Source of the DNA: Halobacterium sp. CBA1132 | GTDB taxonomy: Archaea > Halobacteriota > Halobacteria > Halobacteriales > Halobacteriaceae | Direction: 5' to 3' | DNA length: 64,000 nucleotides | NCBI RefSeq assembly: GCF_001485535.1 | Contig: NZ_BCMZ01000001.1 | Coordinates: 1,054,001 to 1,118,000, forward strand | Shown: positions 5,516-22,270 of the stretch, piece by piece | Layout of the letters: each line of letters opens with the position of its first letter | How positions within the stretch are numbered: the stretch's first letter is position 1 | Made by a program: the position numbers and the translations under genes | Notes under the pieces: model-generated | The model's database searches: none | Seen by the model: the letters and a program-made list of their open reading frames with translations, nothing else | Told to the model about the DNA's origin: nothing

Positions 5516-5589
5516 GGGCCGGTAGCTCAGTTTGGCAGAGCGACGGACTCTTAATCCGTCGGTCGCGTGTTCAAATCGCGCCCGGCCCG
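5516..5589 (+). tRNA. tRNA-Lys (anticodon CTT)
   Basis: A 74-nt cloverleaf: acceptor GGGCCGG/CCGGCCC, D-arm GCTC/GAGC, anticodon stem ACGGA/TCCGT with loop CTCTTAA (anticodon CTT), T-arm GCGTG/CGCGC (one G-T pair) with loop TTCAAAT, discriminator G. No intron. CCA is not encoded. Its 3' half is copied 114 bp downstream. Confidence 0.97.
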
Positions 5590-5703
5590 CTTCTGCGACG
5601 AACGAACGTGAGGAGCGAAGCGGGTAGCGATTTGAACCCTATCAGACGCAGCGCGAACGAAGTGAGCGACCGTCTGATTCCGGTTCAATATCGCGCCCGG
5701 CCC
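5590..5703 (+). repeat. tRNA-Lys-derived downstream module (inverted T-arm plus tail copy)
   Basis: Starting directly after the tRNA with CTTCTGCGA, this segment holds an inverted copy of the T-arm (GCGATTTGAACC, 5628-5639), an inverted repeat ATCAGACG/CGTCTGAT (5641-5648 and 5671-5678), and then a direct copy of the tRNA T-loop and acceptor 3' strand (GTTCAATATCGCGCCCGGCC from 5683). The whole can fold as one long hairpin. It could be an attachment-site scar of an integrated element or a tRNA-linked repeat. No gene is seen in it. Confidence 0.75.
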
Positions 5704-5957
5704 CTACTCTAATTATCCCTTTCCAGGGTTCTCTGACACTAACAGCGGCATCTGGGTGTGGTCAGCGTGACGCTCGAACAGCTGACTTACCCCGGTCAGC
5801 CCGTCGTCCAACTCCGCCTCACGCAGTGCCCGAGCACGACGACTCGGGATAGCTGAGCGAGGAGCGCTCTGGACAGGTCTGGTCGCTTTGGAGTGATTCG
5901 TCGGATACTGGGAAAAGACTATACTAACTAAATGGTTAGTTACCATTGGAAACAGCT
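5704..5957. other. Intergenic stretch with SDR promoter and possible gene remnant
   Basis: No intact gene is convincing here. The minus strand has an open frame (5713-5946) whose distal part has haloarchaeal codon use, but whose first part does not. It may be the 3' end of a lost gene, for instance from an element once inserted at the tRNA. The right end is A+T rich and carries the SDR promoter and operator-like repeat. Confidence 0.4.
5923..5940. promoter_or_regulatory. Operator-like inverted repeat before SDR gene
   Basis: ACTAAC-N6-GTTAGT lies 17 bp before the SDR start codon. The same half-sites, spaced by 2 bp, form the palindrome at 8662-8677. A TetR gene lies between them. Binding by that TetR is inferred. 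Confidence 0.55.
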
Positions 5958-21784: not shown

Positions 21785-21961
21785 GGGGCTGTGGCCAAGC
21801 CAGGAATGGCGACTGACTCCAGAGGCCACGCGCCCGGGACGAAATTCCAGACTGGTATACCGAGCGGCCGACTGATCATCGGTCCGCGACGACGACCCTC
21901 TGGAGTTCCGAGGCGCACCGGAGATATCAGTCGATCGGGGGTTCAAATCCCTCCGGCCCCA
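21785..21961 (+). tRNA. tRNA-Trp (anticodon CCA) with intron
   Basis: Acceptor GGGGCTG/CGGCCCC, anticodon stem ACTGA/TCAGT with CCA at 21819-21821, T-arm GGGGG/CCCTC with loop TTCAAAT, discriminator A. An intron of about 103 nt (about 21823-21925) interrupts the anticodon loop, as is known for haloarchaeal tRNA-Trp, where it also holds a box C/D guide RNA. CTGA boxes are visible inside it. A bulge-helix-bulge splice site is expected; the exact cut is uncertain by one or two bases. Confidence 0.95.
21823..21925 (+). ncRNA. tRNA-Trp intron, likely box C/D guide RNA
   Basis: The intron of the tRNA-Trp gene. In Haloferax the corresponding intron guides 2'-O-methylation of the same tRNA at positions 34 and 39. 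Here the length and CTGA elements fit that role; guide pairing was not proven base by base. Confidence 0.6.
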
Positions 21962-22088
21962 CTTCTACGATAACTGAGGCCGCGAGAGCCCCCTGTGGCT
22001 CTCGCGCCGAGCGAGTTGTGTGGCGGTCGAGGGATTTGAACCAGGGAGGAGCTGTGCTCCGACCGTGGTTCACAATCCCTCCGGCCCC
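21962..22088 (+). repeat. tRNA-Trp-derived downstream module (hairpin plus inverted and direct T-arm copies)
   Basis: Directly after the tRNA comes CTTCTACGA, similar to the sequence after tRNA-Lys. A perfect 10-bp hairpin follows (CGCGAGAGCC, 21981-21990, with GGCTCTCGCG, 21997-22006). Then an inverted T-arm copy (GAGGGATTTGAACC, 22029-22042), an inner stem GGAGC/GCTCC (22048-22060), and a direct copy of the tRNA tail (AATCCCTCCGGCCCC, 22074-22088). The arms 22029-22043 and 22066-22081 pair with each other. Confidence 0.78.
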
Positions 22089-22270
22089 GAGTGCACCATT
22101 CTCGATTCTTGTGATGTCGACGAGCATCCTTGACGCGACCTCGCAGAGCGTGCGCTCGGCAAATCCAACACGGAGGGTTAGATTCCCGTTAGGGGTGTGC
22201 CTAAGGGCACAAATCTAAAACACCCCACACCGTTCTGCGGCCGCACCCGAAACCGGCCCCTAAGAGGGAG
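22089..22270. other. Stretch after the tRNA module, no gene seen
   Basis: Contains GGGTTAGATTCCCG (22176-22189), which resembles a T-arm and may be another tRNA-derived remnant, and the start of the A+T-rich island. No ORF with support. Confidence 0.35.

Follow-up and report, generated by a model that had tools for sequence, protein, structure and literature searches.

Hairpin modules behind haloarchaeal tRNA genes carry copies of the end of the gene they follow

The window, the whole stretch of 64,000 nucleotides of Halobacterium sp. CBA1132 analysed here, holds a hairpin module behind tRNA-Trp and a second one behind tRNA-Lys. We consider it somewhat better than even (roughly 0.55) that both belong to one haloarchaeal family, a target-copying DNA hairpin repeat that is re-templated by recombination and template switching. 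Modules matched the tail of their own tRNA, their arms covaried and one core occurred with different arms, while units were gained in tandem, exchanged their core or were deleted. The 3' end of tRNA-Trp is the template of the module behind this gene, which ARAGORN missed by default because of its intron. The Trp locus is made up as follows.

21785–21961, + strand: tRNA-Trp gene (CCA anticodon, intron of ~103 nt; RF00005, 44.2 bits; ARAGORN with introns allowed)
21962–21970, + strand: leader CTTCTACGA, directly 3' of the discriminator A (sequence; same position at tRNA-Lys)
21981–22006, + strand: hairpin 1, a 10-bp perfect stem CGCGAGAGCC/GGCTCTCGCG (repeat search; also at other loci)
22029–22042, - strand: inverted copy of the tRNA-Trp T-arm (GAGGGATTTGAACC), the 5' arm of hairpin 2 (repeat search)
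22043–22066, + strand: inner hairpin of hairpin 2, the short variant core at Trp (DNA fold, z -5.9)
22067–22088, + strand: direct tail copy GGTTCAC-AATCCCTCCGGCCCC (repeat search, comparison with the tRNA)

This order of leader, 10-bp hairpin, inverted T-arm, inner stem and tail copy had been proposed in the first-pass annotation and was borne out by the sequence and its repeats. The arms of hairpin 1 (21981–21990 and 21997–22006) matched at 100% in the repeat search, and a longer alignment of the inverted T-arm (22020–22042 against 21940–21962) covered 23 nt at 83%. The tail copy AATCCCTCCGGCCCC (22074–22088) was identical to the tRNA tail (15/15), and a single additional C in the copied T-loop stood ahead of these 15 exact letters. 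Folded as a single DNA strand, 22020–22089 reached -23.5 kcal/mol compared to -11.0 in shuffles (z -5.9), and the structure model R1 (described below) matched at 22026–22084 (E 1.4e-4). Directly at tRNA-Trp, congeners G002, G003, G007, G010 and G012 carried inserted elements whose left ends are related (TACTGCAAAAAAGTACTTCGGAAG...GGGGTGGTCNGCGTGA). In four congeners, a search for modules displaced beyond such elements brought up no additional tail copy over a 60-kb range.

The module behind tRNA-Lys showed the same order of parts and adjoins the remnant of an integrated element.

5516–5589, + strand: tRNA-Lys (CTT) (ARAGORN; RF00005, 67.3 bits)
5590–5704, + strand: Lys module, parallel to the Trp module (R1, 59.9 bits, E 5.9e-12)
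5590–5598, + strand: Lys leader CTTCTGCGA
5622–5699, + strand: Lys hairpin 2
5690–5703, + strand: Lys direct tail copy
5705–5820, + strand: remnant left end of an integrated element, abutting the Lys tail copy (comparison with congener G008)

A 28-kb element with the same left end adjoins tRNA-Lys itself in G008. This element carries an integrase gene (PF00589, E 2.8e-8) near its far end, followed by the 14-bp tail CGCGCCCGGCCCGC and the displaced Lys array, and the Lys module sits outside it. In the window's genome (G000), that left end adjoins the tail copy of the Lys module and not tRNA-Lys. At this one locus the Lys tail copy was used as an integration site by an integrase element. A survey placed the left-end motif behind the tRNA itself at eight loci and behind a tail copy at one, some of which may be chance matches.

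To see how widely the layout recurs, as the first-pass annotation had suggested, stretches around the 43 tRNA genes of the window's genome were searched for the 12-nt tail of the same gene (≤1 mismatch, within 600 nt). An own-tail copy was present downstream of 22/43 genes and upstream of none, and foreign tRNA tails matched the same stretches in just 6/1736 comparisons. Thus, the layout is not confined to the Trp and Lys genes; its absence from the other tRNA genes would have spoken against the proposal. The inverted arm likewise preferred its own tRNA, e.g. at Met, Arg-GCG, Gly-CCC and Val-CAC. In general, the layout comprised a pyrimidine-rich leader, hairpin 1, the inverted T-arm, a conserved inner hairpin and the direct tail copy, forming non-coding units of 75–215 nt whose direct copies repeat the last 10–24 bases of the gene. 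The CTTCTRCGA leader was indeed found directly behind tRNA-Trp and two tRNA-Lys genes, but it was common to these only; other leaders were merely pyrimidine-rich (CTTCT, TTTTC, CTCCTC). Tandem units were frequent, including two identical 114-bp units plus a third at Glu-TTC and at least three units at Val-GAC.

Many direct copies contained an extra T-loop base (TTCACAAT, TTCATAAT, TTCAATAT), fixed in place and varying in identity. Such copies were seen at 22067–22073 of the window, in Val, Arg-TCG and Lys units, and at L063, L065 and L072; the extra base would break a tRNA-like T-loop. A second class of unit, without an inverted T-arm, consisted of a palindrome of the type CGAACGCTTCGCGTTCG, then CTCA(G/C)TCCC, then the tRNA tail. 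It occurred at Ala-CGC, Ser-GGA, Arg-CCT and Arg-GCG of G000, and also at L107 and L132.

The covariance model R1 was built from an alignment of 18 hairpin-2 sequences, restricted to units without the extra T-loop base in the direct copy because this base causes the arms of all units to misalign in a joint consensus fold. Arm covariation across the 18 sequences was 0.239, compared to 0.094 ± 0.014 in shuffles. R1 matched at 36 places in the window's genome and was present in 105/116 Halobacteriales genomes (93/96 of the good ones). The number of matches per genome, where present, ran from 1 to 33, and the whole of this range was found inside one genus, with one 99% complete congener containing a single match versus 33 counted for the window's genome in this survey of the order.

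A larger set of 128 modules from many genera gave the same picture. Almost all (123/128) lay ≤1 kb 3' of a tRNA gene on the same strand, and the remaining five lay behind a partial tRNA-Gly or a tRNA-like gene missed by ARAGORN. The best tail match was the module's own tRNA in 96% of cases, with a mean of 10.6 letters matched in the own 11-nt tail compared to 6.5 for other isoacceptors. In this set, 88.9% of cells were paired, double-changed cells numbered 318 versus 124 in shuffles, and the covariation score was 0.340 versus 0.142 in shuffles and ≤0.124 in slid structures. The covariance model proposed as a check returned strongly covarying arms. Together with own-tail specificity and the shared core, this strongly supports the suggestion that one layout has been rebuilt by a repeated process with the sequence of its own tRNA. 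The exact core pattern was detected in 116 stretches among 84,980 species genomes; among the 80 matches listed, 77 were haloarchaeal by title and three were bacterial bins, where the pattern likely occurs by chance.

The tRNA-like gene missed by ARAGORN was seen at L209:401-480 (G080) and L226 (G087); it scored 48 bits with RF00005 and its anticodon stem is apparently closed by a 4-base UUCG loop. Three hairpin modules follow it at L209. At L110:1501-1581, a reversed module lies behind tRNA-Phe and, given the asymmetry of the core, the cassette seems to have been flipped.

The inner core had the consensus NNAGTCGCAGC..GNA loop..GACCGTCTNN', with a conserved T.T mismatch, an internal loop and a GNA loop closed by C-G. 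A GNA loop closed in this way is the form of very stable DNA mini-hairpins. Inner parts at different tRNAs were 90–98% identical whilst the arms followed TTCAAAT or TTCGAAT. For example, the 47-nt inner parts at Arg-TCT and Gly-TCC reached up to 98% identity, yet one had GATTCGAACC/GGTTCGAATC as its arms and the other GATTTGAATC/GGTTCAAATC, each according to its own tRNA. Similarly, Met unit 2 and Leu-TAG unit 2 of the window's genome shared 64/68 nt over a block that begins precisely with the inverted arm and ends with the direct arm, and beyond this block they switched to their own tails. The outer inverted bases of Met unit 2 (GCGGCGGATT) fit AATCCGCC tails and not Met.

A second model (R2), comprising the inner core only with the arms left out, again matched mostly tRNA ends. 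In the window's genome it also matched the 3' end of aspS, where GTTCCCGCGAGACCGCCA is repeated as GTTCCCGCGGGATCGCCA (L392, G000:C1:321810), an enolase-superfamily-like gene, also at its 3' end (GTTCGACGAGG, with a slightly changed repeat), and one gene start, both gene names being read from translated gene ends. In G029, a member of another family, R2 likewise matched aspS at its 3' end, which there carries a direct repeat of its own (L427, G029:C5:232992). As the core, again accompanied by local direct repeats, also lies at aspS and two further protein genes, what the sites share is the local sequence and not tRNA function. As aspS bears a cassette and a copy of the aspS end in two families, it may be a second conserved landing site.

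Comparison of orthologous loci among congeners revealed inheritance together with frequent exchange, tandem gain and loss. At Glu-TTC, the identical 114-bp unit was present twice in G000 and once in both G012 and G011, a difference of exactly one unit. At the same locus, hairpin 1 was kept and the core exchanged between G000, G012 and G011 on the one hand and G002, G009 and G001 on the other, whilst at the Met locus hairpin 2 was lost in G004 and G012. The close cases at orthologous loci were exchange, tandem gain, loss and displacement; no clean pair of empty and filled sites was caught among them, which counts against the explanation we prefer. So does the persistence of the Glu and Met modules through the genus, which could reflect function.

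In the reading we propose, each cassette lies directly behind a gene, usually one for a tRNA, and is flanked on both sides by a direct copy of that gene's last bases. The inner hairpin is the conserved travelling part, and the outer arms are made from the local gene end as a direct copy and a reverse complement. Cassettes may spread and persist as DNA hairpins, the direct copy probably arising from the re-joined target end, and fold-back synthesis or replication template switching would then rewrite the inverted arm to fit it. Recombination between the repeated tails could multiply, swap or delete units. As a side effect, tail copies can act as integration sites for tRNA-targeting elements, as at the one Lys locus. 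A protein recognising the folded core may exist. Neither such a protein nor an enzyme inserting the cassette was identified, and this counts against the proposal. More tentatively, a dedicated haloarchaeal enzyme might recognise the folded single-stranded core, insert it at gene 3' ends and copy the target into both arms. Among the three functions suggested in the first-pass annotation, tRNA-templated insertion came closest, with the correction that the template is the local gene end, at aspS and other protein genes as well as at tRNAs.

The modules could instead be functional RNA, i.e. structured tRNA 3' trailers (terminator, processing signal or anti-tRNA switch) with arms held complementary by selection, which we think unlikely. 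Strong covariation of the arms and the T-rich leader directly 3' of the tRNA would fit such a role, and compensatory changes in a conserved structure are present in the modules, but DNA-level copying of the arms gives the same signal. In the outer inverted arm, G.T occurred in 62/670 and A.C in 9/703, although about half of the G.T excess came from one position, the counts are not independent events and the units were picked with a model tolerating G.U. This preference for G.U over A.C matches the expectation for RNA folding and counts against our explanation. Inner stems, however, showed no G.U excess; they differed by replacement of complete Watson-Crick pairs, G.T and A.C intermediates being nearly absent, and hairpin 1 had 4 G.T versus 3 A.C. 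Replication template switching makes and repairs stems by whole pairs in one step (PMC8794818), so the whole-pair changes of the inner stems were counted for a DNA-level process. If transcription read through the tRNA end, the inverted arm is predicted to pair with the T-arm of its own tRNA, but this fold would misfold the tRNA. The RNA reading is further weakened by the core at protein genes, by the half of the genome's tRNAs without a module, by the 99% complete congener with one copy and by the lack of any Rfam family matching the module. A terminator in particular lacked support, given that orthologous tRNAs can be without a unit or have lost it. On balance we favour a DNA-level process, with an RNA role possible.

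That tail copies are decoys, kept to protect the tRNA context by diverting integrating elements from the tRNA gene, appears improbable. The Lys left end, lying behind the tRNA in G008 and behind the tail copy in G000, is one good comparative case but no general proof; the motif survey (eight loci against one) points the other way, a decoy has no need of an inverted arm, and the units at aspS would stay unexplained. Neither a terminator nor a decoy function is established. We give no higher probability to the modules being leftovers of tRNA-integrated elements after internal deletion, moved by a tyrosine recombinase as attL-attR mini-elements. The loci are integration hotspots, and direct repeats of the tRNA 3' end bound the units as they bound integrated elements (PMC8371274). 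Against this, the core with its target-specific inverted arm was absent from plasmid and phage records at the sensitivity used, viral contigs lacked the exact core pattern, the module at G008 lies outside the element and the action of a tyrosine recombinase would not produce a new inverted arm. Two loci on their own could look alike through coincidence of two old integrations, but the counts over the genome (22/43 tRNAs) and the order (105/116 genomes) rule this out for practical purposes. Three further candidates were rejected. A CRISPR- or casposon-like target duplication accounts for the direct copy but not for the target-specific inverted arm; a tRNA primer-binding site for reverse transcription is disfavoured as the inverted arm fits the T-arm better than the 3'-terminal acceptor; and carriage of modules by viruses or plasmids found no real match, with none in plasmids, phages or viral contigs covering most of the core.

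The repeat family is present in most of an archaeal order and occupies up to half of a genome's tRNA ends; it calls for changes in how haloarchaeal tRNA ends, sites of integration and partial tRNA genes are annotated. It also bears on where integrating elements land and why. As the tRNA pins the direct arm, all changes in its inverted partner are readable, making the modules a test case for arm complementarity. If a dedicated enzyme were at work, this would be a new kind of non-coding, target-copying mobile element that resides chiefly in tRNA arrays and secondarily offers viruses and plasmids a place to integrate.

Open-access literature on haloarchaeal tRNA-associated repeats did not describe the family; subscription journals were outside this scope and may hold an earlier notice. 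Bacterial REP/BIME sequences are likewise short, non-coding, extragenic hairpins in many copies just behind genes (compare the 36 R1 matches). The arms of REPs do not copy the neighbouring gene, whereas cassette sequence depends on the neighbour, with arms following their own tRNA in 96%. Integron attC sites are hairpins with conserved mismatches, variable paired arms and an extra unpaired base. The cassettes share the conserved mismatches and variable paired arms, and some units have an extra unpaired base in the direct arm, but there is no gene cassette within the unit. Template-switch hairpins (PMC8794818) offer a single-step route by which inverted arms are made and repaired, though by themselves they leave the shared core and the choice of tRNA ends unexplained. 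Among described repeats, the closest are the PATEs and SMRs of Haloquadratum and the att repeats of tRNA-integrated elements. PATEs and SMRs (PMC3119063) also are haloarchaeal, short and non-coding; they contain palindromes, occur in many copies and have no transposase of their own. PATEs are related to IS605-type ends and show no target duplication (PMC3119063), whereas the cassettes lie at tRNA or gene 3' ends, are flanked by direct copies of the gene end (a repeat of 10–24 nt) and have target-rewritten arms. Compared to tRNA-integrated elements (PMC8371274), the cassettes are 75–215 nt units without integrase or genes, none seen on a mobile molecule, and they possess an inverted copy, form tandem arrays and occur also at aspS; what the two have in common is the direct copy of the tRNA 3' end downstream, so that this repeat stands on both sides of the unit.
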